A stretch of DNA of 64,000 nt. Origin: Chloranthus sessilifolius. Taxonomy: Eukaryota > Streptophyta > Magnoliopsida > Chloranthales > Chloranthaceae. The DNA is taken from contig CM037596.1 in assembly GCA_021018995.1 (NCBI GenBank), positions 13,467,501-13,531,500 on the forward strand, read 5' to 3'. The first letter of the stretch is position 1, and the number at the start of each line of letters is the position of its first letter. Of this stretch, positions 4,396 to 58,524 are shown piece after piece. Under the pieces are notes generated by a model. It ran no database searches. It had not been told where the DNA came from and worked only from the letters and a program-made list of their open reading frames with translations. Made by a program: the position numbers and the translations under genes.

Positions 4396-6940
4396 TGTGA
4401 CAGCCCGGATTTCGACACCTCGAAACCCGTGCGATCAGCACGATCATCTTGACCGCGCCCCTTGACTAAGCACAAAATACTGGTATATCAAGCAACAATA
4501 ATAAACTGAAAATAGTAATTAGAATTGCAGAATAAATATCATTTTTAAAACCTTTCAAAAGACAGTTCTACCCTCATGCCTCTGCATGAGTGGAGAACCG
4601 ATCCGAACCATCGATGATAGCTAATCATCACAGATGGTTCGCCCAAAAGAATAATCCCAAACTTTAATTACATTATTTAACCAAAAATCAGGCTTGACAT
4701 ACCAAGCCGCACCACTAATCTCACAAAACTCTCAAAGCTGCACAACAGAGTCCTCTAGAAGAAGTCCTCTGGAGGTGGCTCTAACTCGTCACCAGGTGCC
4801 GGGTTTGACTCACCAGGGTCAACGTCCCCTGAAGCGTCAACAGCTGCTAATAATGGACCTACGACGTATAATCAAAAGGGTGAGCTACATCCTAGCTCAA
4901 TAGGGAACAAAACACAGTGAACATATAAATTAGAACTCACATATATTCCATGATATGCCATGCATGATGTATTTATGCAATTACTGGAAAAACAGTAGAA
5001 AAGAATTACATTTTTACTAGTAGTTTACACATGTCTTTTAATTACTCATGAATGATGCTGACTAAGCCTAAAGTAAAACTTAACCTTTCAACTTAAGTAA
5101 TCCCCGAGAACTATAGCATCGAGCCCCGATGAGATACCCTTCATCGTCATCTATATAGACAGTTTTAAACGTATTCCCTGGGAATACAAATAGTACCCAA
5201 GCTCCTTTCCCCTGGGGATCGGTGGCGGGGTTTCACTTATCATAATTCAACACCCCTGGGGTGTACTTACTATGTACGGATAAGCCTCCGCACTGGCTTA
5301 CGATTTCACCGCCGTATCGGTCACGGATATCCTGCCGCGTCAGTCGTGGGTATCCCGCCACGTCGGTGGGGTATCCTATCAAACTTCAAATAACAAAAAT
5401 ATCAGGTGTTTTACATATAGTTATTCACCGTGTAAGTGTGGTATCTTATATCAGTTAGGTCCTATCAGACATTATTCAATCATAGATACATCCCTGGGAT
5501 GTATCCATATACTTGCATCACACCTGATGCTCTTATTACTTCACTTCCTCATCCCCTTGGGATGACTCATTATGATTTCTCTTATGGATGTCACACACAC
5601 ACCCTTTTCATAAATTCTTAAACAATTAAAACAGTTTTACATTTGGATTCTATATCACTACATACATGCTCTTACAAAATAAAGTACATGTTCAAGGTGT
5701 TCCCTATCTCAAGCCTCTGTTTGATCATGCATCAAGGTCCCACGTGGCTCCTTGTGCCCAAGTTCACACATACCACCTATGATACCACATAATATATGAA
5801 ATACATCACTAAATATGTAACAAGGAAGGTCCAAGACCCTCCAAGAATCTTAAAGTCAAACTCAAAAGTCAATAAAAACTGGCACAGTCGATTAATCGAA
5901 CTCCAAAGTTGATTAATCGAATCTGATTCGATTAATCGATTTCCAAAATCGATTAATCGAAATTCAAAGTCGATTAATCGATTCCCAAAATCGATTAATC
6001 GAGATTCCCATTCGATTAATCGAATCCCAATTCGATTAATCGAAATTCTCTACTCTATCCATTCGATTCTCAATTCGAGTAATCGAATTTTCAAAATCGA
6101 TTAATCGAACCGAACTCAATTAATCAAAATTCAAACTCGACTAATCGAAATCCCAATTCGATTAGTCGATTTCCCCAGACTACAATTCTCCATCCACTGG
6201 AGGTTCTCAGTCGATTAATCGACTCTAAAATCGATTAACCAAAATCCAAAGTCGATTAATCAAAACTCAGTTCGATTAATCGAAATCGTATCTTTTGACT
6301 TTTCAACTTCTTGGCAAAAATCAATTAATTGAATCTCACTTTCGATTAATCAAAATGGCCAGATTCAGCCCCCTTTTGGGCTGTTCTTCCCAATCTTCTT
6401 CCAACTGATTTCTCTTTCTTTTCTAAGCCATTATCCTATGATTTTAGCTATTTCTAACTACAATTAAACCCTTCAATCTATGCATTTAATTTATAAGAAT
6501 TTTACCTTCAATCAATCTCCAATTGATTAGGTCAAGTGGTTGGAAAGGCCAGGGTTTCAGCTTTGCTTCTAGCGGATCCCTCGTGTCGAATCGGCCTTTT
6601 AAATGCTTGAATCTCCCTTCCAAACACTCACCATTTCTCCTTGCATTAACTATGCTCTCTCTCTCTCTCTCGTCTTTACTCTCTCTCAACAACCAAATAA
6701 AAGAACTAGGGCTATTAAATCCTTTTATCTCCCCTCTAGTTTGTGTGTTGAGCACCTGCACCGTAATAGGTGTATGTGACTTCAGATTCACATCACTCTT
6801 CACATATTCACTTGATTTCTCACATCTCATCCATTCATCGCACCCTACGCCAACTATTGAACTCCTATTTGGTCAAACCTATGACCAGTCGGGCACGAAT
6901 CCCGAGGTCATTGTTTAACGTGATTTTTCGGGATATTACA
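4396..6940 (-). repeat. Tekay-1 3' LTR (2545 bp)
   Basis: It is bounded by TGTGACAGCCCGG at 4396 and GGGATATTACA at 6940. It matches 14908..17436 over its whole length. It contains the palindrome array at 5888..6356, a CT-rich microsatellite near 6655, and GGTATCCC-type repeats near 5320..5370. In element orientation AGATAAAAGG near 6730 is a candidate TATA region. Confidence 0.93.
5888..6356. repeat. TCGATTAATCGA palindrome array in the Tekay-1 3' LTR
   Basis: About twenty exact or one-off copies of the 12-bp palindrome TCGATTAATCGA sit in this stretch, with non-conserved linkers. The first eight start at 5888, 5909, 5928, 5949, 5970, 5991, 6012 and 6032, so spacing is 19-21 bp, close to two turns of DNA. 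The array is kept in the other LTR and recurs upstream of the extra ORF. Confidence 0.9.
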
Positions 6941-7203: not shown

Positions 7204-8747
7204 TCAAAAAGAAGATGAGAGCACGAGGCTCATGCAGTGGTGGGCAGTGCTCCATCGAGCTATGGGGAGGCAGTGGAGGTGAGTGGGTGGTGGAGTGGCG
7301 ACAGGGCGCTGTGGTGTCTCGGTGGTGAGCGATGAAGTGGAAGTACCAGCGTCGGTAGCCGTGGTGGTCGGACGGAAGACAAGACCCCTATGGAAGGCGG
7401 TCCGTCCCGCGGTCCACTCCTCCTGAGCTAAGTACCGCTGATAGTCAGACGGGTAGATGTAGCGGAGCATATGGAACATAAGGAAGTCCATCCTCCGGTT
7501 CATCCGCTCGTTGTTGGCCTCCATGCGTGCCAACACGTCCTCGATGGTAGGACCGGAGTGATCTGCGCGTCGGTGGTAGGATGGCGTAGGTGTAGCTGGC
7601 ACAGACTGTGCTGGCGGTGTAGGTGTAACGGTGGTATGGGAGGGTGCCCCCTCCACAGATGGCTCAGCCGGGTGTGCCCCACCCACGGGTGGGTCCTGAT
7701 GTGGTGGTGGGGGTGGGGGTGGTGCTACTGCTGCTACTGGAACTGAACCCGGAGCCGGTAGGGTCCTCTTCAACAAGTTGTAACTACGGCTCCATGAAGA
7801 CTTCGAAAATGTCTTCACTCGGTCCGTCGCCCGCACCTCGTGGGGCGATATCGCGTACTCGGGAGCGTTAGAGTAGCACTCCAATATGCGCGAGATCAAC
7901 CGAGCATACGGCATTTTCTCTTTGGGCCTCAAGTTGCCCTTCATTAGTTTTCCTTTTATATACTTCATCCCCTCTAGGATGAGCATGGTCGCGTCGAACC
8001 ATCGGCCACAAAAGGCCACATAGAGTGCCTGCTGCACTACCTCTATCCGCTTGGTGTCGTGGCGCAACGGGTAGAGGTTACACTTGATGATGGAATCAAG
8101 CATCCACATGTAGTGGGGAAGGTCGACCCTCTTTATGGAGGCTCCCGACCCCTTTTCTCATTTTTCATGCGAGTCATGATCTCCTCAAATTTAACTTCCT
8201 CTTCAAAGGGTGGGAAGAGGGTGGTCTCTAGTGTAAAATCGAGGTAACACTCGAGTACCTCGTGTATGTGGCGACGGGTAATGGTGTAGTCCCGACCCTC
8301 TATCTTGGTCAAAATCACGTCGTCGGTAGGGCCGTCAACGAGCCCTTGGTAAAACAATCTAACTAACCTAGGGTAGTAGGAACCCTGGATTGGTTTGAGA
8401 AGATTGCCGAGACCGGCATTTCGGAGGTAGTTGTGAGCCCATTGGGTCTCGCCCGGTACATCGGGGTTCGTAAAGAGGGTTGGGTCGATGATGTATTCGA
8501 CCTCAAAGGTCTTAGCCTCCCACCACTCATTGGGTTGTAGTACGTTAGTGGGTGGTGGCGGCATGGGGGTAGATTCACGTGAAGACTCACGTGAAGATGC
8601 ACTCGTCGAACCGGACGTGGTGTCCGATGTCGACGGTGATGGAGTCCTCACTGGTGAAGGGGTAGGTGGTGGTGGTGCGGCATTCTTACGCCGGACCGGA
8701 AGTTTAGAGGTCGCCTTTGCCGAAGACAACCGTGTTTTCGGCGGCAT
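7204..8747 (-). pseudogene. Tekay-1 extra ORF (putative plant transposon protein family)
   Basis: About 515 residues read on the minus strand from ATG at 8747, with one frameshift near 8150. The N-terminus is basic and Pro/Ser-rich (MPPKTRLSS, then PSPVRTPSPST). It is followed by a globular part with PNEWWEAKTFEVEYIID, GLGNLLKP, YYPRLVRLFYQGL and RRHIHEVLE, then MWMLDSIIKCNLYP, RWFDATMLILEGM and MPYARLISRILE. A Pro-rich linker and an acidic/helical tail (VLARMEANNERMNRRMDF) follow. It lies between integrase and the 3' LTR, where envelope-like genes sit in some elements, but it has no signal peptide or membrane segment. I recognise the fold pattern as the family named putative plant transposon protein; its biochemical role is unknown to me. 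Tekay-2 has a co-linear homologue and Copia-2 a distant one. The open frame over 500 codons suggests selection until recently. Confidence 0.75.
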
Positions 8748-8975
8748 TATGGTGAAAATTCAGGAAATTAGGGTTTTTATGGCTCGAATTTGAAGAAAAA
8801 GAGTTGAACTAGGGTTTACCGTAGGTTTCATGGTAAAAGTTAGCGTCCTTGATCCGAAATCAACGAAAGAGATCCAAAACCCTAGCTTGGATGGTTGAAG
8901 GAAGAAGGAGAAGCAATGGCGCCCAAATGTAAAAATCCCAAATGATTTCGGATGAAATGAAAAAACTCATCGATT

Positions 8976-8993: not shown

Positions 8994-9770
8994 CTCGATT
9001 AATCGATTTCTGAAGTCGATTAATCGAAATTTAAAATTAGGTTAAGCCGCGCGAAATCGATTAATCGATTTCCAAAATCGATTAATCGATTTCCAAAATC
9101 GATTAGTCGAAACTCAAAATCGATTAGTCGAAACCATTTCGATTAATCGAAATCGTATCCGTTTAAAATTTCAAGTTTTAGAGCTCACTGGCGCGAGCCA
9201 GTCGATTAATCGAAATCCATTTCGATTAATCAAAATTCCAAAATCGATTAATCGAAATTCACTTCGATTATTCGAAATCGTGCTGTCCCGTCCAAAGTTT
9301 TCAGGATTCTTTAAGTTACTCGATTAGTCGAACTATGATTCGATTAATCAAAATCTCAAATCGATTAATCGAATTTCACATCGATTAATCGAAATCATTT
9401 CTCATACTTCAAATTTGCTAATTTCCTTAAGTTAATCGATTAATCGAACTTCCAGTTCGATTAATCGAAACCATAAATCGATTAATCGAATTTCTCCTCG
9501 ATTAATCAAAATTTCATAAAATCCCTTTAAGTTCTTCTAAAATTCTCAATTTGTTCGATTAATCGAACCCTCAATTCGATTAATCGAAATTCTAAATCGA
9601 TTGATCGAAACCAATATCGATTAATCGAAATTTCACTGTCATTGTTCTAATCCTTATTCAAGTTCCCAGTCACTGGCGTATGCTAGTCGACTAATCGAAC
9701 AAAATCGATTAATCGAATTTCCAAATCGATTAATCGATTTGAAAATCGATTAATCGGTTTTGATCAAATT
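8994..9770. repeat. TCGATTAATCGA palindrome array upstream of the Tekay-1 extra ORF
   Basis: Some thirty or more copies of TCGATTAATCGA or close variants fill this stretch, often in runs spaced about 20-21 bp apart and separated by unrelated linkers of 30-60 bases. It starts just after integrase/chromodomain and ends at the TATA-like site of the extra ORF. The motif is the same as in the LTRs of this element. Confidence 0.9.
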
Positions 9771-14907: not shown

Positions 14908-17436
14908 TGTGACAGCCCGGATTTCGACACCTCGAAACTCGTGCCATCAGCACGATCATCTTGACCGCGCCCCTTGACTAAGTACGGAACACTGGTATAT
15001 CAAGCAACAATAATGAACTGAAAATAGTAATTAGAATTACAGAATAAATATCATTTTTAAAACCTTTCAAAAGACAGTTCTACCTTCATGCCTCTGCATG
15101 AGTGAAGAACCGATCCGAACCATCGATGATAGCTAATCATCACAGATGGTTCACCCAAAAGAATAATCCCAATTTTTAATTACATTGTTTAACCAAAAAT
15201 CAGGCTTGACATACCAAAGCCGCACCACTAATCTCACAAAACTCTCAAAGCTGCGCAACAGAGTCCTCTAGAAGAAGTCCTCTGGAGGTGGCTCTAACTC
15301 GTCACTAGGTGCCGGGTCTGACTCACCAGGGTCAACGTCCCCTGAAGCGTCAACAGCTGCTAACAATGGACCTGCGACGTATAGTCAAAAGGGTGAGCTA
15401 CATTCTAGCTCAATAGAGAACAAAACACAGTGAACATATAAATTAGAACTCACATATATTCCATGATATGCCATGCATGATGTATTTATGCAATTACTGG
15501 GAAAACAGTAGAAAAGAATCACATTTTTACTAGTAGTTTACACATGTCTTTTAATTACTCATGAATGATGCTGACTAGGCCTAAAGCAAAACTTAACCTT
15601 TCAACTTAAGTAATCCTCGAGCACTATAGCATCGAGCCCCGATGAGATACCCTTCATCGTCATCTATATAGACAGTTTTAAACGTATTCCCTGAGAATAC
15701 AAATAGTACCCAAGCCCCTTTCCCCTGGGGATCGGTGGTGGGGTTTCACTTTTCTCAATTCAACACCCCTGGGGTGTACTTATTATGTACGGATAAGCCT
15801 TCGCACTGGCTTACGGTTTCGCCGCCGTATCGGTCACGGATATCATGTCGCGTCAGTCGTGGGTATCCCGCCACGTCGGTGGGGTATCCTATCAAACTTC
15901 AAATAACAAAAATATCAGGTATTTTACATATAGTTATTCACCGTGTAAGTGTGGTATCTTATATCAGTTAGGCCCTATCAGACATTATTCAATCATAGAT
16001 ACATCCCTGGGATGTATCTATATACTTGACTCACACCTGATGCTCTTATTACTTCACTTCCTCATCCCCTTGGGATGGCTCATTATGATTTCTCTTATAG
16101 ATGTCACACACACACCCTTTTCATAAATTCTTAAGCAATTAAAACAGTTTTACATTTGGATTCTATATCACTACATACATGCTTTCGCAAAATAAAGTAC
16201 ATGTTCAAGGTGTTCCCTACCTCAAGCCTCTGTTTGAACATGCATCAAGGTTCCACGTGGCTCCTTGTGCCCAAGTTCACACGTACCACCTATGGTACCA
16301 CATAACATATGAAATACATCACTAAAGATGTAACAAGGAAGGTCCAAGACCCTCCAAGAATCTTAAAGTCAAACTCAAAAGTCAACAAAAACTGGCACAG
16401 TCGATTAATCGAACTCCAAAGTCGATTAATCGAATCTGATTCGATTAATCGATTTCCAAAATCGATTAATCAAAATTCAAAGTCGATTAGTCGATTCCCA
16501 AAATCGATTAATCGAGATTTCCATTCGATTAATCGAATCCCAATTCGATTAATCAAAATTCTCTACTCTATCCATTCAATTCTCAATTCGAGTAATCGAA
16601 TTTCCAAACTCGATTAATCGAACTGAACTCGATTAATCGAAATTCAAACTCGACTAATCGAAATCCCAATTCAATTAGTCGATTTCCCCAGACTACATTT
16701 CTCCATCCACTGGAGGTTCCCAGTCGATTAATTGACTCTAAAATCGATTAATCGAAATCCAAAGTCGATTAATCAAAACTCAGTTCGATTAATCGAAATC
16801 GTGTCTTTTGACTTTTCAACTTCTTGGAAAAAATCGATTAATCGAATCTCACTTTCGATTAATCGAAATGGCCAGATTCAGCCCCCTTTTGGGCTGTTCT
16901 TCCCAATCTTCTTCCAACTGATTTCTCTTTCTTTTCTAAGCCATTATCCTATGATTTTAGCTATTTCTAACTACAATTAAACCCTTCAATCTATGCATTT
17001 AATTTACAAGAATTTTACCTTCAATCAATCTCCAATTGATTAGGTCAAGTGGTTGGAAAGGCCAGGGTTTCCAGCTTTCCTTCTAGCAGATCTCTCCTGT
17101 CGAATCGACCTTTTCAATGTTTGAATCTCCCTTCCAAACACTCACCATTTCTCCTTGCATTAACTATGCTCTCTCTCTCTCTCAACAACCAAACGAAAGA
17201 ACTAGGGCTATTAAACCCTTTTATCTCCCCTCTAGTTTGTGTGTTGAGCACCTGCACCGTAATAGGTGTATGTGACTTCAGATTCACATCACTCTTCACA
17301 TATTCACTTGATTTCTCACATCTCATCCGTTCATCGCATCCTATGCCAACTATTGAACTACTATTTGGTCAAACCTATGACCAGTCGGGCACGGATCTCA
17401 ACGTTATTGTTTAACGTGATTTTTCGAGATATTACA
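14908..17436 (-). repeat. Tekay-1 5' LTR (2529 bp)
   Basis: It is bounded by TGTGACAGCCCGG and GAGATATTACA on the plus strand and is co-linear with the LTR at 4396..6940. It carries the same palindrome array (16400..16868). Small differences include a shorter CT microsatellite. Confidence 0.93.
16400..16868. repeat. TCGATTAATCGA palindrome array in the Tekay-1 5' LTR
   Basis: This is the counterpart of 5888..6356, with the same order of palindromes and linkers. A few point changes hit individual copies, mostly CG to CA/TG as expected from cytosine methylation. Confidence 0.9.
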
Positions 17437-28989: not shown

Positions 28990-29099
28990 TGTAAGACTTT
29001 TTGTCACCATCATGACTCAAAAAAACAGTATTGCTTCTTTAGGAAATAGTGTTGCCAAGTAATTAAGTTTGACAAATTGGTTTGTCATTTTTTTGACCC

Positions 29100-29169
29100 A
29101 CGGTCGTCCGTTGTACACTCACGGACGTCCGTTGTCACGGACGACCGTGAGTGATTCACGGACGTCCGT
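29100..29169. repeat. ACGGACGTCCGT palindromes in the Copia-2 5' LTR
   Basis: Copies start at 29100 (one mismatch), 29121, 29137 (one mismatch) and 29158, with spacings 21, 16 and 21 bp. The last ends 11 bases before the TATA box. The same set is in the 3' LTR at about 37833..37902. Confidence 0.92.
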
Positions 29170-29180
29170 GATCCTAAAAC

Positions 29181-29188
29181 ATATAAAT
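29181..29188 (+). promoter_or_regulatory. TATA box of the Copia-2 LTR
   Basis: ATATAAAT follows the palindrome cluster, so the palindromes occupy the proximal promoter position of the element. Confidence 0.6.
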
Positions 29189-29669
29189 TTTAGGAAGTTC
29201 GGACAGTTTCATAACTGATCCGAAAATCTTCTTTCTAAAATTTTTGTTTGTCCAAAATTGTGTCATTGAGATTACTTTACTTCTTTTGATTTCATTCTCT
29301 AATCTCTTTGATGTTTATGGGTCGTTATGATTTCATGTTTGAGAGTGTAAGACTTGTGTGAGACAAGTGAACCTTCGCAAGGAACGTAGGTTGATGGAAA
29401 TGTTCACTATGGATAGTATGATGGAGAAAGGCTGTCATGTTTGGTGATTGGAGTGCTAGGGCATATCATTCCAAAGAAGAATCAGAAAGTTTTTTGTTCA
29501 TAGTGAATTTCTTTTTGGATCCGAGATAGATCCGTGGTTTTACTGTGACGGGTTTTCCACGTTAAAAATGTCTTGCGTACTTATTTTGATTGTATGATGA
29601 TTGTGAGCAGATTTTAATTGATAAATTTAATAGATTATATTAAAAAACTTAAATTTCCCAAATTTTCAA

Positions 29670-29685
29670 TTAGTATCAGAGCCTG
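29670..29685 (+). other. Primer binding site of Copia-2
   Basis: TTAGTATCAGAGCCTGG follows the LTR. It matches the tRNA-iMet site TTGGTATCAGAGCC with one change. Confidence 0.8.
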
Positions 29686-29717
29686 GTCACTTGGTAAATT
29701 CTAACAAATTAAGTATT

Positions 29718-31560
29718 ATGTCTAATTTGGGATATCACGATCTTCCTAGAGAAGGTGCGTCTACTGCTAGACCCCCTCTGTTTGATGGCTCTAATTATCC
29801 TTACTGGAAGGCAAGGATGAGAGCATTTTTAAGTTCACTTGATCCTCACATTTGGTATTCTATTGAGGACGGATGGTTACCACCAACTACGACCTCTGTT
29901 GTCGATAATATACCACATACCACTATCAAACCTAGATCTTTATGGACGGATCAGGAATATGATAATCTTGGTTATAATTCCAAGGCCCTAAATGATTTAT
30001 TTGGAGCGATCGCTCGAAGTTTCGAATAAGTACTTGCACCATAGCCAAAGATGCATGGAAAATTCTTGAAACCACTTATGAAAGGACTCCTCAAGTAAAG
30101 ATTTCCAAACTTCAAATGCTCACTTCTCAATTTGAAAATCTTCGTATGGATGACGATGAAAAGTTTTCTGATTTCTATATTCGCTTAAATGATATTGTAA
30201 ATGGTTCATTTAATTTAGGAGAACCTGTTTCAAATACTAAAATTGTGCGAAAAATTCTAAGGTCTCTACCTAAAAGGTTCAGATCAAAAGTCAATGCTAT
30301 TGTTGAATCTAAAGATGTTGACAATCTAAACTTAGATGAACTCGTTGGGTCATTACAAACTTATGAATATGAAATTCAAGATAATCATGCCACTAAAAGT
30401 GTTGCATTTAAATCATCAAAGGTTGAGTCTGATTCTAGCAGTGATTCTGACAAATCAGATGAACTTGCTTTATTTGTTAAAAAATTTAAAAAATTCTATA
30501 AAAATAAGAAACAACCTTTTAAAAAATTTGAAAATTCTGAACAATTTAAATTATTTGAAAAGAAACCTAAAAAGGATTTTCCTGACACTACTCAATGTTT
30601 TAAGTGTCATGGTTATGGACATTACGCTAATAAATGTCCTAGTAAGAAAAATGATAAAGGAAAATCCAAAGCTTTGACTGCTTCACATGAGATTGAAATA
30701 TCAACTGAGTCATCTTCTGATGAATCTGAATCTAGTTCTTATGGATTTAGAGCGTTTGTTGCCTCTATTGTGGAAACTAATAATTATCAAACTCCTTCTC
30801 ATATTGACACTGACTCTATTGATTCAATCTCATCTGCTAATGAAATTGATGGTGATGTATTGGATATGACAAATGCCTACAGTGAACTTTATCAAGAATC
30901 AATACATCTAACTAAAGAAAAAATTAAATTAATCAAAGAAGTGACTGAGTTAAAAAACATTATAAGAAATCTCCAAGACAATGTAAATTGTTTAACTCCA
31001 AAATTTATTGAACAAGAAAATAAAGTAAATTCTCTTATTGAAATAAATGAAAATTTAAAAAGGGAACTTGTTTTTATTTCTGAAAAATATTCAAACATTT
31101 ACAAGACTAATGAGAAAATGGAAAAATTACTCAGTTCTGGTCAAAGAACAACAGATAAAACAGGTATTGGATATCATCATGTAGAAAATAAAAATCTAAA
31201 ACCTGTTGTAACTCATGCTCCAAAATTTGTTAAAGAAATCAAATCACTCTCTACAAATTCTAGACAAAAGGACAATAAATTCAAATCTTCCAATACTAGA
31301 TTTATTAATAGGAGAGTGCCAATCTGCTCTACTTGTGGATGGGAAGGGCATACTTATGTATATTGTCCATTTGACTTTGAATACTCTCAATACTATGTTC
31401 CTCACTACCAAACTTTTAAGAACAATACAGTCATTTCATTGAGTAGTTCACATAAATATAACAACAACCATGTGCTTCATAACAAATCAAATCTTAAATA
31501 CAAACGTGTTTGGATTCGGAAATCTGATTTAACTGCTCAGGTTGCTCATATTTCTCTCAA
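29718..31560 (+). pseudogene. Copia-2 Gag
   Basis: The likely start is ATG at 29718 (MSNLGYHDLPREGA). The capsid part has PPLFDGSNYPYWKARMRAFL and, after a frame change near 30028, DAWKILETTYERT, VKISKLQMLTSQFENLRM, NDIVNGSFNLGE, KILRSLPKRFRSKVNAI and NLDELVGSLQTYEYE. An acidic Ser-rich linker and a Lys/Phe-rich part lead to zinc knuckle one (CFKCHGYGHYANKC, 30597..30638). A long Glu/Lys/Asn-rich coiled-coil region follows (about 30850..31120), then zinc knuckle two (CSTCGWEGHTYVYC, about 31325..31366). It continues in frame into protease. Confidence 0.88.
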
Positions 31561-32847
31561 AGCAAGTGAATCATCTAAGTGGTTCCTTGATAGTGGCTGT
31601 TCTAGGCATATGACTAGTGAGAAATCATTCTTTTCTCATCTTAGTCCATGCTCAGAAGGAAATGTGACTTTCGGTAATGGAAGTTCTTGTAAAATTACTG
31701 GAAGAGGAACAATTAATGCTCCTGGTTGTCCTAAACTAAAAGAAGTCCTTTATGTTGAAGGACTTAAGGCTAATCTCATTAGTATTAGCCATTTAAGTGA
31801 TGATGGGATGAATATTAATTTTTCAAAAAATCTGTGCACTGTTGTTGATTCTAATGGCAAAATTGTTCTTGAAGGGATTAGATCTACTGATAACTGTTAC
31901 ACTTTTAGCGATCATCTCCAAAATAATTGTCTTATCACTAAAACAAATGAGATCAATATCTGGCATCAGAGGCTTGGTCACATGAATAAAAATGATCTTT
32001 ACAAATTAGCCTCTGATCAACTTGTTAAAGGTTTACCTAAATTAAGCAAACCAGATGGATCTATTTGTGGTGCTTGTCAAATGGGTAAACAGACCCGTGT
32101 TCCTCACAAGAAAGTAAATGTTCCTACTTCTTCTAGGATTCTTGAATTAATACATTTTGATCTTGTAGGTCCCATGAGAACAAGTAGTTTAGGAGGTAAG
32201 AAATATGTACTTGTTGTGGTTGATGATTTTTCTAGATATACTTGGGTTGCTTTTCTTAGAGAAAAATCTTAAGCTTTTGATGAATTTATTATCATCTCTA
32301 AGAGAACTCAATTTGAAAAAAATCTTTCAATAATTCGAATTCGAAGTGATCATGGTAAAGAATTTGAAAATTCATCTTTTGCAAAATATTGTGCTTCAAA
32401 TGGAATAAAGCATGAATTTTCTGCTCCTCACACACCTCAACAAAATGGTGTGGTTGAGAGGAAAAATAGGGTCCTTCAAGAGATGGCTAGGGTTATGTTA
32501 AATGCAAATAATGTGGCTAAAAATCTATGGGCTGAGGCTGTTAGTACCGCCTGTTATATTTCAAATCGAGTATACCTTAGACCAAACACTACTAAGACTC
32601 CATACGAAATATGGAATGCTAAGAAACCTCAAGTTAGTTATTTTCGAGTTTTTGGTAGTGCTTGTCACATTTTAAAAGATCGTGAATATCTTAAAAAATT
32701 TGATCCTAAAACTGACAATGGTATTTTTCTTGGTTACTCATTGAACAGCAGAGCCTATAGGGTTTTTAATTTAAGAACTCTTACTGTCATTGAATCAGTT
32801 AATGTGGTTGTAGAAGATCAAAATCGATTCTTCTTACATTTTAAATA
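31560..32847 (+). pseudogene. Copia-2 protease and integrase
   Basis: The protease active site is KWFLDSGCSRHMTSE (31577 on). The GAG-pre-integrase domain has NIWHQRLGHMNKNDLYKLA and CGACQMGKQTR. The integrase core has IHFDLVGPMRTSSLGGKK, VVVDDFSRYTWVAFL, IRSDHGKEFENSSFAKYC and HTPQQNGVVERKNRVLQEM. It is broken by TAA at 32270 between REKS and AFDEF. The frame ends in a stop at 32848, and sequence up to 33060 is degraded. Confidence 0.9.
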
Positions 32848-33064
32848 GAGATATTGATGAAGTTCTTGTTGTTCCTATTAATCATGAAAAATTAGACTGA
32901 GAACATTAATTTATCTTCGACAATGAAAATTCTACACACACTACAACTAATATTATGAAGATATCGTAGATATTCCACACAACAATATCTACGAAATGAG
33001 TCTCGACATAGGCCTTCCTATGCTCGTGATATGAAAAGTCACCCATCTTACCATCATTGGTGAC

Positions 33065-34658
33065 TTGTCCACTCAACTTCTTACTAGACGAAAATTTAAA
33101 AATCTGTCAAACCTTCTTTCTCATGTTTGTTACACATCAAATCTTGAACCAAAAAATATTAAAGAAGCTCTTCTTGATGAGCATTGGGTTACTGCGATGC
33201 AAGAAGAGCTCTCTCAATTCAAAAGGAATGATGTGTGGGAACTTGTTTCTAGACCTCCAAATATTAGAATCATCGGTACAAAATGGATTTTTAAAAATAA
33301 AACAAATGAAGAAGGTAAAATCATTAGAAACAAAGCAAGATTGGTGGCTCAAGGGTACACTCAGGTTGAAGGTATTGATTTTCATGAAACATTTGCTCCT
33401 GTAGCTAGGCTTGAGTCCATTCGCATAATCTTAGCAATGGCATGTCATTTAAAATTTAAATTATACCAAATGGATGTAAAGAGTGCATTTTTAAATGGTT
33501 TTTTGACTGAGGAAGTGTATGTGGAACAACCCAAAGGATTTGAAGATCCACATCATTCTCATGATGTATTTAAACTTAAAAAGGCATTATATGGCCTGAA
33601 ACAAGCACCTCGTGCTTGGTATGATAGACTCACAAAATACCTAATCACTAATGGTTTTAAACATGGTAGTGTGGATAAAATATTATTTTTGAAAGAAGAA
33701 TCATCTAATTTAACTGTTGCTCAAATTTATGTTGATGACATTATCTTTGGATCCACATTAGACTTAAATGCTCATAAATTTCAAACTCTAATGAGCAATG
33801 AATTTGAAATGAGTTTATTCTGTGAGTTAAATTGCTTCTTAGGTCTCCAAATAAAACAATGTTCCACTGGCATTTTCATTTTCCAATCTAAATATGCAAA
33901 AGAACTTGTAAAGAAATTTGGTTTGGAATCAAGTAAACCTGCCCGCACCCCTATGAGTACGTCAGTGAAATTGACAAAAGATGTAAATGGTAAAATTGTA
34001 GGGGATACAATTTATAGAAGCATGATAGGTAGTCTTCTCTATCTTACTGCTAGTAGACCGGATATTGCTTACAGTGTGGGTATGTGCGCTAGATTTCAGG
34101 CAGCTCCTAAGGAGTCTCATCTAACTATTCTCAACATTCGTTATGTTAACGGTACACTAGAGTTAGGCCTCTGGTATCCTTTCGATACCACATCTCATAT
34201 CATTGGTTTTTCCGATTCTGATTGGGCCGGTAACTCTGATGATCGTAAAAGCATGAGTGGCGGTTGTTTTTATATTGGAAATTGTCTTGTGTCTTGGCTC
34301 AGCAAAAAACAAGCTTCGGTTTCTTTATCCTTCTTTGAAGCAATATATTTCACGGTAATGGGTGCACTCAACTCTTATGGATGAAGCAAATGTTGTCTGA
34401 CTATGGGATTTCTCAAGGTGTAATGACCTTGTTTTGTGATAACACCGTATTTGTATTTCTGAAAATCCTGTACAACATTCTAGGACTAAACACATTGATA
34501 TTCGACACCACTTCATACGTGATTTGGTGGAAGAAAAAATTATTCTCCTGAAGCACATACACACGCAATTACAATTAGCAGATATTTTTACAAAATCGTT
34601 GGATTTTGATCGATTTGAATTTCTTCGAAAATCCATTAGTTTATGCTTCATCGATTAA
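33065..34658 (+). pseudogene. Copia-2 reverse transcriptase and RNase H
   Basis: RT shows [94 protein letters not shown] and the catalytic [10 protein letters not shown] (33728 on). RNase H has [20 protein letters not shown] and SWLSKKQ. A frame change near 34375 precedes FCDNT, RTKHIDIRHHFIRDLVEEK and LADIFTKSLD, ending at TAA 34656. The active-site residues are intact. Confidence 0.9.
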
Positions 34659-35524
34659 TCACTATTTCATCACTTGTATATATATATATATATATATTTT
34701 TTTTTTTTCTTCTTTCTTCGCAGATATTTTTATATAATTTTGTTTGATACGTTCTAAAGTTTCATGCGTGATCATGTTATAAAATTTTCTAAGAATGCAT
34801 TTGTATTATTTTGAGTTACACTGAATTGGCTTTTATTCTGTATCATCACGGTATTTTTTATTATCGTTAGTATATAAAGGAATTTTTTACTAATAGTTAT
34901 TGCAACAAGCTTATGCTCTGGGTAAATGTTGAATCTTGATTTTTTTTATTCAAATAATGTTCTGTATTCTTCTGATTTTTCTTTCAATTTGCCTTTTCAA
35001 CTCGAGTCAATAAGCCCGTGGAGTATTCTATACTTAATGCCCTAAGTCAACTGAATTAGGAGTCATTGGCCTAACCCTCGCTAAATGAGTTGAATAGAAA
35101 GCAAGTGAATTTCAGATTGAATATTCAAATTTTTCTTTCACTCTACCTTGTAGCCTAATTGACTTGAGCAAGTAAAACCGTTGGGATTTCTTCAAATCTA
35201 TTGCCCTAAACTAACTAGTTGGGAGTCAATGTTCTAAAGCTTATTAAAAAGGTCTTTTAGAAAGCTTAAAAAGGTGTGAGTATCTTTCCTTTTTGGAGAA
35301 CATTTAAAAAAAAAAAAAGTGGGAATCTCAATATTATTTGGACCATATGTTGTTGTTGCAATTAACTTTGATTTTTAAAATCTTCCTTTGTTAACTATTG
35401 TTTTCTAATGTAATACCTTTGATGTGTATAGAAAATAGTGAATTTTATGTTACTCTTATTGCTTCGTTTGCATTTTAGGATGTTTTTTTTTATTCTTTCA
35501 CATGAAATTTTATTACATATTATA

Positions 35525-35565
<41 letters not shown>

Positions 35566-35600
35566 CTATTTTTGAAAATAAAAATAAAAATTCTTAAGTG
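34659..35600. other. Copia-2 spacer between pol and the palindrome array
   Basis: Non-coding, with a (TA)n run at 34676..34698 followed by T-rich sequence, and a long poly-A run (about 35530..35562). There are no conserved proteins. Confidence 0.5.
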
Positions 35601-35602
35601 TC

Positions 35603-35951
35603 ACGGACGTCCGTGACGTCTATACGGACGTCCGTATTCTCAACCCCAAACTAATTCCATCCGGCCTTCCGTGATTCACTACGGACGTCCGTATTTCAAT
35701 AGGTTCACTGCCTCTTTTCAACGGACGTCCGTGAATCACTCCGGACGTCCGGTTTATAATCAGTTCCAAAAATTCGAACGGTCTTTCTGCAGTTATTACA
35801 CCTGACAACTGTCAGTCATTCACGGACGTCCGTGCATGTCTCCACGGACGTCCGTCAGTTCAATTTCCAAAGCATTCTCAATGCGGTTAAATTTTGTTTC
35901 CACGGATCTCAATGTCATACGAACGTCCGTGAGCTTCTGACGGACGTCCGT
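35603..35951. repeat. ACGGACGTCCGT palindrome array upstream of the Copia-2 extra ORF
   Basis: Copies start at 35603, 35624, 35681, 35721, 35741 (CCGGACGTCCGG), 35822, 35844, 35919 (one mismatch) and 35940, with a degenerate copy at 35661. They form five pairs with spacings of 21, 20, 20, 22 and 21 bp. The array ends about 100 bases before the ORF start at 36049. The motif is that of the LTR promoter. Confidence 0.92.
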
Positions 35952-36048
35952 ACAAATTTTTTTAAAAACGAAACTCTTGAACCGTCTTCTTCATTTTTCA
36001 CTCAAAATTTTTTTTCACTCTGCTCTTCATTTCAACGAAAAATAGAGA

Positions 36049-37229
36049 ATGCCTCTAAATAGGAAAAACTCTAAGAAATCTAAAGGTTCTTCCTCTTCTT
36101 CATCGCATGAACTTCAACGTTTTCCTTCCAAAAGCCATGAAGAACGTTTTCACCGTCTATTTCTTAATAGAAATCTCATCGTCGAACGGGTTGTTCTTGA
36201 CAAATTTCTCAAAGATCATGATTTGTATGACATGTTTGCTTCTCGGGGTTGGCTTTCACTTCTTTCTCTCTAGCACTCTGCTTACAGATGTGGTTGGTGT
36301 TTTATGCTAATCTCCTCAACGCCAAGATTGTAGAGAGTAGGATGGAGTGTTATGCAGTGACTTACATTTTTGGTAAACAAATCACTTTTTCTCCTTTACT
36401 TATCTCTGAAATCTTGGGCATTCCTTTAAATGAAAATGGGTATAGTTATCCTGTAGATGAAAGTCAAATTCAATCACTGTTTAGTCCTTCCACCGTCTAT
36501 GACTATGTATGCAATGCACCGTCTCAACTCACTGGAATTGCATTGCACTATTCTTCCTTGAAAATGAAATTTCAATGGCTTCGCTACGTTCTTTTTGCCA
36601 CTCTTACACCAAGAGCGGGAAATAAAGATCAAGTGCGTTGGGACATTATTTATCTAATGTTCCTCTTAGACAAAAATCGTCCTTTGTGTGTATCTTCAAT
36701 AATTTTTGAATTAATCCTTCGACGCATGAGGGATGATACCTCTAAAATGTCTCTTCCTTTTCCTATAATTATTAGCAAGATTGTTGAGTCTCAAATGACT
36801 CTTCCTCCTTTTCTGGCTACTTCTAGAGCCATGGCACCATTAGGAAAATTAAAAAAAATTGGAAAAAGAGTTACACTAGATTTGGACGATGTTGAATTAT
36901 TAGATGATACGTCTGATGAAGATGAGGCAGAAGATTTTCTTGCTCAAGAGGGTTTTCCTCAAGAAGCCGCTGCTCCACCAGCAGTTCCTCCGTATCAAGG
37001 TCAAGAGGGTCATTATTATGATCAACATTTTCATAGGATGCATACTGAGATGCAACATATGCATTCTGAAATTCAAAACTTATCAAATCGGATTGAAACT
37101 GGGTTCAATATTTATGGGGAACAAATATCTTCATTACAAATGACAATGATTGACGGTTTTGAAGCGATGATGAATCGTTTTAACAATGTCTTTCCGCCTC
37201 CAGGAGCACACTTTCCGCCTCCAGAATGA
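36049..37229 (+). pseudogene. Copia-2 extra ORF (putative plant transposon protein family)
   Basis: About 393 residues with one frameshift near 36265. It starts MPLNRKNSKKSKGSSSS, a basic Ser-rich tail. A globular part follows: RFHRLFLNRNLIVERVV, DMFASRGWLSLL, then VFYANLLNAKIVESRM, FGKQITFSPLLISEILGIP, LRYVLFATLTPRAGNKDQV, DIIYLMFLLDKNRPLCVS and MSLPFPIIISKIVE. A short acidic stretch (DDTSDEDEAED) and a helical tail with HRMHTEMQHMHSEIQNL come next, and the protein ends in FPPPE. The RGW...L-FYANL and PR...V arrangement is what I associate with the plant transposon protein family also present in the Tekay elements here. It has no transmembrane anchor, so it is not a typical envelope. The role is unknown. 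Confidence 0.7.
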
Positions 37230-37710
37230 TGTTTATTTTGTTATAATGTTGTAATTCTGACAAATTTATTCTGGTTTGAGGATATATTATGTTTTTGTAA
37301 TGCTATAATTCTTCTTTTCATGTTTTAATCTTTTAAATTTTAATATGGTGTTAAAAGTTTCCTTCATTTGTGCTTAACTTCAAAATTTATATTTGAATGT
37401 AGTTTCACTGGTTAAAAGTATCCTTTGTCACATTATGACAAAAAGGGGGAGATACTCCTTATATTTCACTTGTGCTATTAATGTGTTCTATGGTTATTTC
37501 AACAGGTGAAGAGCTACAACTAAAAGATAATTTTTTTTTGATATAGTGTTAAGGTTACACTTTTACTTGGCAAATAGGTAGGGGGAGCAAATAGAGTTGT
37601 AATTTCTGCATTTGCATTCTAGATTGATGTATAGGACTTACAAGGGAAATGAATATATTGTATTTTCTATTTTTCCAGTCCTTGTAATTTTTTTTTGTCA
37701 TGATTGTGAC
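37230..37710. other. Copia-2 3' untranslated spacer
   Basis: Non-coding. It contains an additional polypurine-like AAAAAGGGGGAGATAC at 37439, about 280 bases before the functional one. Confidence 0.5.
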
Positions 37711-37722
37711 AAAGGGGGAGAT
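37711..37722 (+). other. Polypurine tract of Copia-2
   Basis: AAAGGGGGAGAT directly precedes the 3' LTR start at 37723. Confidence 0.9.
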
Positions 37723-38381
37723 TGTAAGACTTTTTGTCACCATCATGACTCAAAAAACCAGTATTGCTTCTTTAGGAAATAGTGTTGCCAAGTAATTAAG
37801 TTTGACAAATTGGTTTGTCATTTTTTTGACCCACGGTCGTCCGTTGTACACTCACGGACGTCCGTTGTCACGGACGACCGTGAGTGATTCACGGACGTCC
37901 GTGATCCTAAAACATATAAATTTTAGGAAGTTCAGCGCATCTTTCTAAAATTTTTGTTTGTCCAAAATTGTGTCATTGAGATTACTTTACTTCTTTTGAT
38001 TTCATTCTCTAATCTCTTTGGTGTTTATGGGTCGTTATGATTTCATGTTTGAGAGTGTAAGACTTGTGTGAGACAAGTGAACCTTCGCAAGGAACGTAGG
38101 TTGATGGAAATGTTCACTATGGATAGTATGATGGAGAAAGGCTGTCATGTTTGGTGATTGGAGTGCTAGGGCATATCATTCCAAAGAAGCACTGTAAAGT
38201 TTTTTGTTCATAGTGAATTTCTTTTTGGATCTGAGATAGATCCCGTGGTTTTTGCCTGTGACGGGTTTTCCACGTTAAAAATGTCTTGCATACTTATTTT
38301 GATTGTATAATGATTGTGAGTAGATTTTAATTGATAAATTTAATAGATTATATTAAAAAACTTAAATTTCCCAAATTTTCA
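37723..38381 (+). repeat. Copia-2 3' LTR (659 bp)
   Basis: Co-linear with 28990..29668 apart from a roughly 20-bp deletion after the TATA box and a few substitutions. It is followed by the TTTTT target duplication at 38382..38386. Confidence 0.93.
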
Positions 38382-40763: not shown

Positions 40764-40851
40764 TCAATCGATTGAGAACCAAGTGTCAATCGATTGACAG
40801 GAGAAGACAATTTTGCCCTTTCTCATTTCGAATTTGAAGTCAATCGATTGA
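40764..40851. repeat. TCAATCGATTGA palindrome trio
   Basis: Exact copies start at 40764, 40786 and 40840. The first two are 22 bp apart. The last ends 30 bases before a TATATAAA. Confidence 0.85.
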
Positions 40852-40880: not shown

Positions 40881-40888
40881 TATATAAA
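40881..40888 (+). promoter_or_regulatory. TATA box in the probable LTR remnant
   Basis: TATATAAA in the context CCCCTATATAAACAAAG, just downstream of the palindromes, is a strong TATA match. Confidence 0.55.
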
Positions 40889-45290: not shown

Positions 45291-45293
45291 AAC

Positions 45294-47367: not shown

Positions 47368-49010
47368 TGTAATGACCCTAAAATTCTGAAACATAATTGA
47401 CTGCTTTGGTATACGTGCCTGACACGAAAAGTGAGATATACTTAAAATTTTCTAATAGGAATATTAATATCATTATTATTAATCCACAGGCGTGTGAAGT
47501 GATATGTCACAAGCAACACAAGTCTGAGATGCGATTAGACCCTTTATAGAATGTTATATACGTGAGTGTAGTGTATGCGCTCAACACCGGAGCGAAAGAT
47601 TTAGAAATAAAAATATCCTGGATATTTTTCTTTGGTAGCTTATAAGAGAAGGAAGGTTAGAGAATACCATATCTCTTCCTTGCTCTGAATTTCTGCTTGC
47701 AAGCTATTTTACTCGCAAGAGAACTCCCTGTGAAACCAAGGCTCGAGAAACCCTAGATCATGGATCCTCTGAGTTAGAACGTGAAGGAATTGACATGTGT
47801 GCATCTTTGAGTTAGAGCGTGAACGTCATATATGTTTGGGAAAGAAAAACACATCAGTGTATTGACGTGGTGATACACCTATGGTTCATCGGAGAGCTTA
47901 AATCAGCAAACTCTCAAATTCCGAATCCGAAAGCCACTTTGAGCAGAGGATGTTGTGAACCACGAAATCGACTCTGAAAGAGGTGAGTTACTACGTATTT
48001 GTAGAGGTTTAGATGTCATAAATATGTGCATATGTATGCTTGTATGATTCGTGGAGAATCATAATGAATCATGGAAGAAATAGGTTAAAAATCAACGAAC
48101 CTCATTAATGACAAAAACTGTCATTTTCAATCGATCAAATTGAGTATTTGATCGATCAAATTTGGGATTTGATCGATCGAATTTTATATATCCCCTATAG
48201 AATAGGAGGGTGATCAATCAAATTTAGACCTGATCGATCAAACTATCAAGGAATCTATCAAGTGGTAAACTATCGATCAATTGAGAAATTGACCAATCGA
48301 ACTGTGAGTTTGATTGATCATTTTAGGAAAATGATCGATCGAAATGTATGAATTCCTTATACAACAGGAGGTCTGAAATTTTGAAAATTTGACTTTGATA
48401 TCTGATCGCTCAAATGAGCAAGTTGATCGATCAAATTCCTTTGTTTTGTATATGTAAATTTTTTAGATCTAATCGATTAAATTGAGTAAATGATCGATTG
48501 AATAGTGAATCCGATCGATCAAATAAGGAAGTTGATCAATCAAATTCCCATGTTCTGTCTATGTCAGATTATGGGATCCGATCGATCAAATGAAGTGATT
48601 GATTGATCAGATGGTGAATCCGATCGATTAAATAGGAAAGTTGATCGATCGAATTTCCCTATTTTGCCTGTTTTGATTTTTTGGGAAAGACACTGCAGGG
48701 CAGTGTACCAAATAGTTTTCTGACATCTCTGACACTTAGTACACTATACTATTAGTCTAAGTTAAGACCGAGACACTTTAAAAAGCTTTGAATTTGTTTA
48801 GAAAGATATGATTTGAGGTAGGAGAAATTAAACTTAACTTGTATCAGATTATGACTACATGGTCTCCTAGCATCTGCATTTTGACTTCTGTTTTAAAGGC
48901 ATACCTTACATATGATAAAAACTATGTCATCTCTGATTCCTATTTTCTGATCTCTGCTAGTGGTAATCATTGGGATACATATACTGCATAGTTTGGTATA
49001 GGAGGAAATC
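47368..49010 (+). repeat. Tekay-3-lineage LTR, left part
   Basis: It starts TGTAATGACCCTAAAATTC after a polypurine tract and holds the TTTGATCGATCAAA array (48125..48660). It breaks at about 49010, where Tekay-2 sequence begins, and continues at 58525..59152. Comparison with the inverted copy indicates about 330 bases missing at the break. Confidence 0.75.
48125..48660. repeat. TTTGATCGATCAAA-type palindrome array (plus-oriented LTR)
   Basis: This is the reverse-complement counterpart of the array at 44420..45060, with many copies spaced around 20-22 bp but more diverged. Confidence 0.85.
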
Positions 49011-50469: not shown

Positions 50470-50745
50470 TCGGGAAAAATTGATTAATCGATTTTAAAAT
50501 CGATTAATCGGTTCTGACTACTCAAACCCAGCTGCCCAAAATCGATTAATCGATTTCAAAAATTGATTAGTCGATTTTCAAAATTGATTAATCGAATTTA
50601 TTTCGATTAGTCGAATTTAACTCTAAAATTTTTCCAGGTCCCTCAGCTCACTGATGTGAACCAGTCGTCCAATCGAACAATTTTTGATTAATCGAAAATC
50701 AAAATCGATTAATCGATTTTTAAATCGATTAATCGGTTTTGACAG
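50470..50745. repeat. TCGATTAATCGA palindrome array upstream of the Tekay-2 extra ORF
   Basis: About a dozen copies or variants between the integrase end and the extra ORF, about 245 bases upstream of its ATG, as in Tekay-1. Confidence 0.88.
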
Positions 50746-56121: not shown

Positions 56122-58524
56122 TGTGACATCCCAAATTTTGACACTCCAAAACCCGTGCTATCAACACGACCCTCAAGCCCGTGCCCCATATTACTACACG
56201 GAATATTTGGTATATCCACATAATTTTAAAGTAAAACATGCACTAAAGCTAATATTAAACTAAATCTCCAGTTCTATAATATAGGCCAAAAATGCGTACC
56301 CAAAAGATAGTTCTAATCTCATGTCACCGCATGAGCAAAAGAACCAACCCGAACCATCAATGACGACACAGCAGTCACCCCGGATGGTTCACCAAAAGAA
56401 GGTCTCACAATTATTACATTATCTCAAAAATAGGGCTAGACATACCAAGCAGTACAATCTCTCTCACAAAACAATCAAAGTACGCAGAGGGTCTTCTAAA
56501 AGAACTCCTCATGAGGGGGCTCAGACTCTTCCCCAGGCATGTACTCAGGATCCTCCGGATCCACGTCTCCCGAAACAACAGCAATAGCTAGCACCGGACC
56601 TGTGATGTATAGTCTAAAGAGTGAGCTACATCATAGCTCAATAGGGAATTAACTGAATGACCATATAAACCTATCTTACTCAAATATATTCCATGACATA
56701 ACAGGACATGATTTATCAATAAAAGACAGCTAGAAAATAGTTTTTAAGTTACTGAAAGCATGAACTGATGTATCTGCTACTCTACACGTGTTAACTCATT
56801 TTCAACTTGTTCACATAAGACAAAGATCGGTCTCAAAACTTAAATCAAATAACTTAAATAATCCTTGAGCACTATAGCATTGAGCCCCGATAGAATACCC
56901 ACCATCGTAATCCAATCAGACTATTTTCCTTCATGTAATACTACCTAAGTCCCTACCTCATAGGCGACTGGACACAAAGCTCACATACATCCAAGGGATG
57001 TCATACTGGCGTACGAATATCCCACCGTACCAGTCACGAATATTCTGCTGAATCAATCGCGAGTATACCGTCGCGTCGGTGAGGTATTCTAGGAACCTTA
57101 AATCAATTGTGCAAAAGTACATATAGTTTTCACCATGTAATCATGCTAAATATAGTAGTTAATGTTTATTCAAATCTCATTCAAACAACTTCACATCACT
57201 TGGATGTTCACGTTTCTCATACATCCCTGGGATGTCACCTATTCATATGCATCGCCTAGATGCCCGCATCACATTTACACCCCTTGGGATGTCACATATT
57301 CATTAACATGCCTATTTCCTTACTTAGTGTTCACCCACACACACACCTTAGTTCCACATGCTTAGCTACTTTTCAAAAACACTAGCATATCTCGATGCTC
57401 TCAACACATGCATACATATTTTCACATCACTACATACATGCTATCATAATCAAAGTATATGTTTAAAATATTCCCTACCTCATGTGCTTTAATCACCATG
57501 CATCAAGGTCCAAGGTGGCTCTACATGCTCTTATCCAAGTGGTTAACCTAAAGTACATCATGTCATGCGCAAAGCATCAATAACGATGCATAAAAGAAGG
57601 GTACAAGGCCCTCCCAAAACTCCAAGGTCCAAAGCAGAACTCACACAAAAATTGTCAAAATCGATTAATCGATCCCAATATCGATTAATCGAAATTTCAA
57701 AATCGATTAATCGATCCCAAAATCAATTAATCAGTTTTTCCAACCTCCACATTTTTCAGCCACTGGGAGTACCCAGTCGATTAATTGATTCCAAATCGAT
57801 TAATCGAAATCAAAAATCGATTAATCAAAATTAAATTCGATTAATCGATTTTGTGTTGCAGTACCCAGATTTGCTTTCTATCCAAAATCGACTAATCGGT
57901 TTTCAAATTGCTTAATCGATTTTGACTGAAAACCAGCCCTTTTCGGGCAGTTCTTCCAGCTTTGTTTTCTCTCAATTTTTTCCACTTCCTATTTCTTTAA
58001 TTCACCATTAATTCAATAAATTCATGCACAAATATTACACACATCATAATTTAATGAAATCTTACCTCAAGTCTCATATATGAGTGATTCAATGGCTTGT
58101 ATCAAGGGTTAGGGTTCTTAGCATTGATTCCACGAATTCACACACGTTGCCTTCGAGATTAACAGCCCACGTATGGCTTCAATCCGCAATTCCACACAAA
58201 ATCCTTAGCATTTACTCCCTCTCCCTTCCTCACTCTCCCTCTCTCTCTTCATAAATCCTTAATCACCTACCAAAATCAAGGATAAATAACTTCTCTTAGC
58301 CTTTAACCCTTTTGACCCAATCCTTCTTTGGTGTAAAATACATACACCCCTAACAGGTGTATATGGCCTTATAAATAGATCCATCACTACATACATGTGC
58401 ACTTTTACCTCAAACCTCATCTAACCTAAGTCATCAAGTTGACTTTCACTCAATCACACGAGTGACCAGACTGGCACGCATCCCGAGGATACTATTCAAA
58501 GTCTAAATTTTCAAGGGTGTTACA
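56122..58524 (-). repeat. Tekay-2 5' LTR (2403 bp)
   Basis: Bounded on the plus strand by TGTGACATCCC and GGGTGTTACA. It is co-linear with the Tekay-1 LTRs, including GTATACCGTCGCGTCGG-type words near 57065 and the palindrome array at 57656..57925. Confidence 0.9.
57656..57925. repeat. TCGATTAATCGA palindrome array in the Tekay-2 LTR
   Basis: About twelve copies or variants, several at 19-21 bp steps. It is a shorter array than in Tekay-1. Confidence 0.88.

Follow-up and report, generated by a model that had tools for sequence, protein, structure and literature searches.

Family-specific palindromes in the long terminal repeats and internal arrays of copia and gypsy elements of Chloranthus sessilifolius, and a possible element-encoded regulator

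A 64,000-nucleotide stretch of the Chloranthus sessilifolius genome (positions 13,467,501 to 13,531,500 of contig CM037596.1, assembly GCA_021018995.1; hereafter the window) contains a copia-type retrotransposon in which a 12-base palindrome, ACGGACGTCCGT, stands before the TATA box of both long terminal repeats (LTRs) and again in an array upstream of an extra open reading frame (ORF). Gypsy elements of the same window, for which we keep the label "Tekay" given to them in a preliminary description of this DNA, carry palindromic words of their own, and in all three families in which both places could be read (copia, Tekay-1 and Tekay-3) the motif of the LTR and that of the array are identical. 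The palindrome system is real and functional-looking. The reading we prefer, to which we give almost an even chance, is that the palindromes would bind a regulator of both promoters of the element, most likely the protein of the extra ORF, which would activate or un-silence its own family.

The copia element and all of its features described here lie on the plus strand. Its 5' LTR (28990..29668) and 3' LTR (37723..38381) align with 646 of 683 positions identical and 28 gap positions; the 655 ungapped columns hold nine substitutions, and a short patch just past the TATA box is replaced in the 3' LTR (29201-29229 versus 37934-37939), with few base differences elsewhere. Both sides of the element are flanked by the 5-bp sequence TTTTT, which is weak evidence because of its low complexity. 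Four palindromes occupy 29100..29169 of the 5' LTR (starts 29100, 29121, 29137, and 29158; spacing 21, 16, and 21 bp) and four the corresponding part of the 3' LTR, 37833-37902 (starts 37833, 37854, 37870, and 37891). The TATA box, TATAAA (29182..29187), starts 12 bp past the last palindrome, a geometry repeated in other copies. Sites 29121 and 29158 are exact, and sites 29100 and 29137 have one mismatch each. The first and third sites of each LTR have one variant half each (CGGTC / GACCG), and base frequencies tabulated over 133 LTR sites show these variant bases elsewhere too; CGGTC is a half-site of Osr10, Osr8, and Vitis elements in Bousios et al. 2010 (PMC2829016; here and below, cited papers were available in part).

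The internal array (35603..35951) consists of five ACGGACGTCCGT-type pairs (35603/35624, 35661/35681, 35721/35741, 35822/35844, and 35919/35940) with spacings of 21, 20, 20, 22, and 21 bp. In the second pair, the leading site, 35661, is degenerate and recognizable by its position and by two mismatches of the 10-bp core only. The last base of the array is 35951, and the extra ORF has its ATG at 36049. On these points, namely sites in each LTR that directly precede the TATA box, a second array ending about 100 bases before the extra ORF, and five pairs at 20-22 bp, the preliminary description was accurate. With up to two mismatches, ACGGACGTCCGT has 19 matches in the window against 0.46 expected (100 shuffles), and 17 of the 19 fall inside the copia element, four in each LTR and nine in the array. 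Exact copies in the 2.17-Gb genome (32 contigs) number 9,483, versus 14 for the reversed control. A chance origin of the clustering is excluded.

Related copies were drawn from two genome searches, one with Pfam family PF20167, to which the extra ORF belongs (13,855 first-look candidates, 150 scored, all above the cut-off), and one with a piece of the copia ORF (1,430 candidates, 121 scored, 71-100% identical); PF20167 searches of 14 control genomes found none. The first 30 places from each search (L005-L064, 60 of 271 scored places), taken with 1.5 kb on each side, left 48 distinct copia loci after removal of repeats. At least three array sites together with at least one LTR site are present in 42 of the 48, and two more (L058 and L060) have an array with no LTR site inside the stretch. 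An ORF lacking palindromes, the counter-example named in the preliminary description, is approached by four loci with fewer than three array sites: by eye, gag-pol sequence borders the ORF in place of the array in three of them (L005, L043, and L063), and in the fourth (L053) LTR-like sites and an LTR-like TATA box stand there. The five-pair layout recurs in related copies, for instance as 857/878, 919/939, 979/999, 1080/1102, and 1177/1198. Over 43 loci (L005, L043, L053, L063, and L064 left out), 171 of 345 array steps measure 20-22 bp and 74 measure 40-42, and for LTR sites 62 of 92 steps are 21-22 bp and 26 are 16.

The same loci bear on an internal promoter in front of the extra ORF. A TATA word lies 11-14 bp past the last LTR palindrome, measured from the 10-bp core, in 40 of 48 loci, and 11-13 bp past the array in 22 of 48, including the atypical L043 and L053. 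The window's own copy has after its array an AT box only, TTTTTTAAAAAC (35957..35968), and no TATA; TATAAA occupies this place in about half of the other copies. Counted more strictly, in the 44 loci that have three or more array sites and with an AT-box pattern set only after inspecting the sequences, the last array site is followed by TATA in 20 loci and by a weaker AT box such as TTTTAAAAA in 23 (43 of 44), compared with no TATA and one AT box after 347 other array sites. In the LTRs, TATA follows the last site in 40 of 46 cases, versus 2 of 100 other LTR sites. Further, the ATG of the ORF is 97-100 bp past the last array core in 29 of 31 loci with the start matched. The copia array is probably a second promoter, serving the extra ORF; an internal promoter was suspected, and not conclusively identified, by Bousios et al. 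2010 (PMC2829016).

It is very unlikely, in our judgment, that the array is a relic, that is, a piece of LTR promoter duplicated before the ORF and spread by copying with no present function. Such an origin would suit the 21 identical bases, in inverted orientation, that one array site shares with the last LTR site. In the window's copia copy this is the longest identity between LTR and array; one further match spans 26 bp at 88%, and the two regions share little beyond site-sized words. The sites are also more alike than the spacers in copies with ORF-domain DNA identities as low as 86%, and a similar arrangement with other words is present in gypsy families. Across 42 aligned array regions, column likeness is 0.90 in sites and 0.72 between them (Mann-Whitney p 5e-18), a p value that is too good because the sites are motif-defined and the copies related, so that the test is biased by the definition of a site. 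Each copia site holds three CpGs, and CpGs are expected to decay fastest in methylated DNA.

The extra ORF of the window is broken into an N-terminal piece with a basic start (36049..36270; it ends in a stop and has no Pfam match) and a second piece in another frame (36231..37229), of which residues 23-186 match PF20167 (Transposase_32, "putative plant transposon protein") at 5.6e-12 and 46.4 bits, over the cut-off of 45 bits; another copia copy, L066, scores 60.9 bits. Judged from a dN/dS of about 0.18, the ORF is under purifying selection: the median for its domain is 0.18 over 137 pairs with dS over 0.1 (22 stop-free copies of 30), a ratio somewhat lowered by the picking of copies for strong domain matches without stops. 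DNA identity among the domains of the 22 compared copies goes down to 86%. Outside the source genome, none of 1,359 candidate protein homologues reached an E value of 0.001 or better, and among viral contigs one stretch fits the peptide pattern and encodes no relative, and no stretch has the motif pair. A C-terminal coiled coil as dimerization device was considered and rejected, with a long helix predicted for copia and heptad tests non-significant (0.08 for copia, 0.65 for Tekay).

The gypsy elements, in which RVT_1, RT_RNaseH, Integrase_H2C2, and SH3_Tf2-1 domains were found and, in the piece searched, no chromodomain, use other words. Tekay-1 (minus strand) has TCGATTAATCGA palindromes in its 5' LTR (16401..16866) and 3' LTR (5888..6353) and an array of TCGATTAATCGA sites at 8995..9757 with steps mostly of 20-21 bp; 9 bp past the last site lies TATATATAT (8985-8977), followed by an extra ORF in two frames (7204..8759, ATG 8747) whose first piece matches PF20167 at 7e-4, below the cut-off. 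Tekay-2 (minus strand) has a TCGATTAATCGA array at 50480..50736 upstream of ORF pieces at 50234-49293; further TCGATTAATCGA sites at 57661..57919 (minus strand) presumably belong to its 5' LTR and are placed in the same element by position only. Tekay-3 (plus strand) has TTGATCGATCAA palindromes in an LTR (48127..48652), a C-terminal ORF fragment (46423-46821), and no array in the window. Exact genome counts are 241,617 for TCGATTAATCGA, versus 55 for the reversed control, and 65,226 for TTGATCGATCAA, versus 317. Another copy of Tekay-1, L067, has TCGATTAATCGA in both LTR and array and an open ORF frame. Array steps measure 19-22 bp in 92 of 120 cases in Tekay-1/2, and TATATATAT stands 9 bp past the last site in two of four gypsy arrays (window Tekay-1 and L067). 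Of the claim that copia and Tekay elements share one layout, the array with its ORF and the spacing thus stand, and the LTR part does not, since the gypsy palindromes are not directly before a TATA box.

Word and ORF go together wherever both could be read, which agrees with the suggestion that each element has its own word. With at most one mismatch, and with repeats kept among the 60 copia loci, matches to the copia, Tekay-1, and Tekay-3 words number 545/0/0 in copia loci, 0/117/0 in Tekay-1/2 stretches, and 0/1/26 in Tekay-3 stretches, that is, one stray cross-match among the three words; the two gypsy words are alike (T-C/T-GAT halves), and their separation amounts to a few bases. The Tekay-3 and Tekay-1 ORFs are 29% identical over 265 residues, and their words differ. 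For Tekay-3, the array word was predicted from the LTR before the array was fetched, and the stretch upstream of the ORF in L068, a relative identified through its ORF, then carried it, a check made on one copy: 13 TTGATCGATCAA matches with at most two mismatches (12 separate places, two overlapping), many at steps of 20-21 bp. Three weak TCGATTAATCGA matches in this array occupy the same positions as three of the TTGATCGATCAA matches.

In the mechanism we propose, the palindromes are predicted binding sites of a regulator acting on two promoters of one element, the LTR promoter, which would be the source of genome-length RNA, and a second one inside the element, immediately before the extra ORF. 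The regulator would most likely be the PF20167-family protein of that ORF. The symmetry of the sites suggests that each 12-bp dyad would be read by a dimer, and the 21-bp pairs, equal to two turns of DNA, that two dimers could sit side by side on one face. The protein would recognize elements of its own family, activate their transcription or keep silencing off, and, by way of the internal promoter, boost its own synthesis. In related elements both the ORF and its word would have diverged, the one matching the other. The sites, their double placement, the copia TATA/AT-box geometry, the motif common to LTR and array in three families, and selection on the ORF are observed, whereas the protein as binder, its binding as a dimer, and its activating or anti-silencing effect are inferred. 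We favor the element's own protein on three grounds: inside a single genome the word follows the ORF family; the word predicted from an LTR was found before the matching ORF; and linker boxes, of which 77 of 79 lie upstream of the envelope-like gene (ENV), occur in nine of nine ENV-bearing and zero of four ENV-less elements among the 13 box carriers in Bousios et al. 2010 (PMC2829016).

A number of observations weigh against the extra ORF's protein as the binder, and some of them speak for a serious rival, one we think improbable on balance, in which host transcription factors bind the palindromes and drive both promoters, and the ORF is an unrelated passenger (for example, an envelope-like or particle protein) with an LTR-type promoter. 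The copia word contains GACGTC at its centre, which corresponds to a bZIP C-box. PF20167 is not known to have a DNA-binding fold; a sequence search of solved structures with the ORF gave a chance match only (E 0.81), and a single-sequence AlphaFold model of its protein had a mean pLDDT (predicted local distance difference test) of 43 and was unusable. Since ACGGACGTCCGT is invariant within copia, covariation rests on three families. The ORF of L067 matches PF20167 at 4.6e-9 and 36.8 bits, below the family cut-off, as are the window's Tekay ORF pieces (20 and 18.5 bits), and the Tekay-3 ORF pieces have no match to it. No TATA was found within 60 bp after the array of the window's Tekay-2 or within 500 bp after that of Tekay-3 (L068/L069), and the gypsy LTR palindromes, unlike those of copia, lie downstream of the likely TATA box; for instance, the only TATA words in the LTR stretch of L067 are at 3045 and 3105, and the LTR sites begin at 3488, at least about 380 bp further on. 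The selection of copies and the definition of sites mentioned above count on this side as well. Finally, four elements in Bousios et al. 2010 (OPIE-2, PREM-2, Osr8, and Tnd-1) lack ENV and keep LTR boxes, and six Sireviruses contain ENV and no boxes, so that neither strictly requires the other, and the boxes resemble stress-factor sites according to the same authors, whose proposal is close to the host-factor view (PMC2829016).

Host factors, however, would have to account for three families each with its own word and a single stray cross-match, and for two gypsy families that, in one host, differ in word as in ORF. They would also have to account for linker arrays that accompany the ORF in the box-carrying elements of Bousios et al. 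2010 (PMC2829016). Moreover, some Sirevirus words have a base between the halves and no ACGT, so that one bZIP cannot read all. A different alternative, which we consider unlikely, keeps the ORF protein as binder and lets it repress (negative autoregulation, copy-number control) or mark element DNA for targeting or assembly. Sites about 9-13 bp from the TATA box would suit the blocking of a TATA factor; the 9,483 to 241,617 exact sites per word, taken as amplification success, fit slightly better with self-activation. No result here discriminates activation from repression.

A wider proposal is that Sirevirus envelope-like genes and Tekay-type extra ORFs would make up a single ancient family of DNA-binding regulators, each specific to its element and reading its own palindromic word from 21-bp pairs at the LTR and at the promoter of its gene. 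Gene and word would co-evolve as a private address through which an element locates, and activates or un-silences, its own kind alone; we put this forward as a tentative possibility that we incline somewhat to doubt. BLASTP of the copia ORF against the Tekay ORFs gave nothing significant, and a remote relation of the copia and Tekay-1 ORFs through PF20167 is possible. The preliminary description had proposed that the module was acquired or evolved in parallel; instead of independent acquisitions, the ORFs may be remote homologues (PF20167 at 5.6e-12 for copia and, below the cut-off, 4.6e-9 for L067). The envelope function of the third gene of plant LTR-retrotransposons is described as controversial in a 2020 review (PMC7264820); if the gene encodes a palindrome-reading regulator, that question reduces to one binding assay. 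If true, plant retroelements of both superfamilies would have a self-recognition like that of the VANC proteins discussed below, and the family-specific words, with up to 241,617 exact copies, would amount to an extensive natural collection of protein-DNA specificity pairs.

Other parts of the data contain further boxes. A fourth PF20167 ORF family, seen at L065 3252-3701 (minus strand; G000:C9 44343400-44347100), has CTCGCGAG boxes before TATAAA and an ORF; seven exact CTCGCGAG sites lie in the first 450 bp, a number reached in 0 of 2,000 mononucleotide shuffles, with irregular spacing, not 21 bp, and TATAAA about 40 bp past the array. Its word CCTCGCGAGG has two matches with at most one mismatch in the copia loci, and 1.9 kb of additional L065 sequence held no further box and no recognized LTR. 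Within the window, three TCAATCGATTGA palindromes at 40764-40851, with spacings of 22 and 54 bp, lie in a stretch not assigned to anything else; the last of them ends 29 bp ahead of CTATATAAAC, and TATATAAA is at 40881. TCAATCGATTGA is similar to ACAATCGATTGT, the box of Tnd-1 (Bousios et al. 2010, PMC2829016), and this may be another LTR of that type. LTR-like stretches with TTGATCGATCAA at 44200-45700 and 47400-48900 are, by eye, in opposite orientation, and the Tekay-2 ORF is followed by a foreign TTGATCGATCAA LTR, a sign of nested insertions.

Comparison with known systems places the copia element first of all among the Sireviruses. Its gag-pol (29634..34384) is broken into several frames and of copia type, with Retrotran_gag_2 (1.5e-19), gag_pre-integrs, rve (below cut-off), SH3_retrovirus, and RVT_2 (4.6e-71). 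In addition to this gag-pol, the LTR boxes before TATA, and the linker boxes before a third gene, it shares with Sireviruses several polypurine-like tracts (three GGGGGAG, at 37445, 37581, and 37714, within 37445..37721), the last of which, GGGGGAGATTGT, is joined to the 3' LTR by the AT-TG junction, and an inverted repeat at the 3' LTR edge around that tract (37697-37713 / 37733-37749, 16 of 17 complementary). On the features tested, it joins the Sirevirus class as a new member. The repeated motif (RM) boxes of Sireviruses are likewise clustered in the LTR just before TATA and again before ENV, and palindromic CGG-CCG boxes in both places were described by Bousios et al. 2010 (PMC2829016), so that the copia layout is known since 2010. 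The Usier box GTCGGACGTCCGAC includes the CGGACGTCCG core of the window's copia word, and in the OPIE-2 box CACCGGACTGTCCGGTG the copia halves are separated by one base (PMC2829016). In contrast to our reading, Bousios et al. pointed to stress-related factors and compared their elements with classic Ty1/copia elements only, and the available parts of their paper mention neither PF20167 nor box-bearing gypsy elements (PMC2829016). What is added here is the TATA/AT-box geometry, the family of the ORF, and the gypsy counterparts.

The best functional model for the extra ORF protein, by analogy, is the anti-silencing protein VANC of the Arabidopsis VANDAL transposons (Hosaka et al. 2017, PMC5735166), an element-encoded protein with family-specific short words that are clustered in non-coding parts and diverge between related families. 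VANDALs, however, are DNA transposons with non-palindromic, same-oriented words, and binding is proven for VANC21 (PMC5735166), whereas binding by the extra ORF protein is here inferred. VANC carries DUF1985 and DUF287; neither matched any of six ORFs or pieces at E up to 10, and membership of the extra ORFs in VANC was rejected. An additional 3' ORF of a sunflower Athila element resembles ours in its similarity to PF20167 and has a predicted nuclear localization signal, but palindromes are unmentioned in the part of that paper available, and in sunflower Tekay the ORF precedes gag-pol on the 5' side and has no known domain (PMC11728184). In Retand elements an extra ORF, predicted to bind DNA, and tandem repeats occupy the region from pol to the 3' LTR, and a regulatory role has been suggested; the ORF, however, is antisense and of another domain (TRP28), with PF20167 unmentioned in the portion available (PMC11963269). 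The literature searched, with subscription papers mostly outside, held no description of the gypsy words, a cross-superfamily ORF relation, or the TATA geometry. A 2016 Genome Research study reportedly dealt with maize Sirevirus LTR palindromes. Set against these systems, the arrangement is half known and half apparently new, and the new half, the pairing of word and ORF across two superfamilies, together with one prediction that came true, is the part that merits a bench test.

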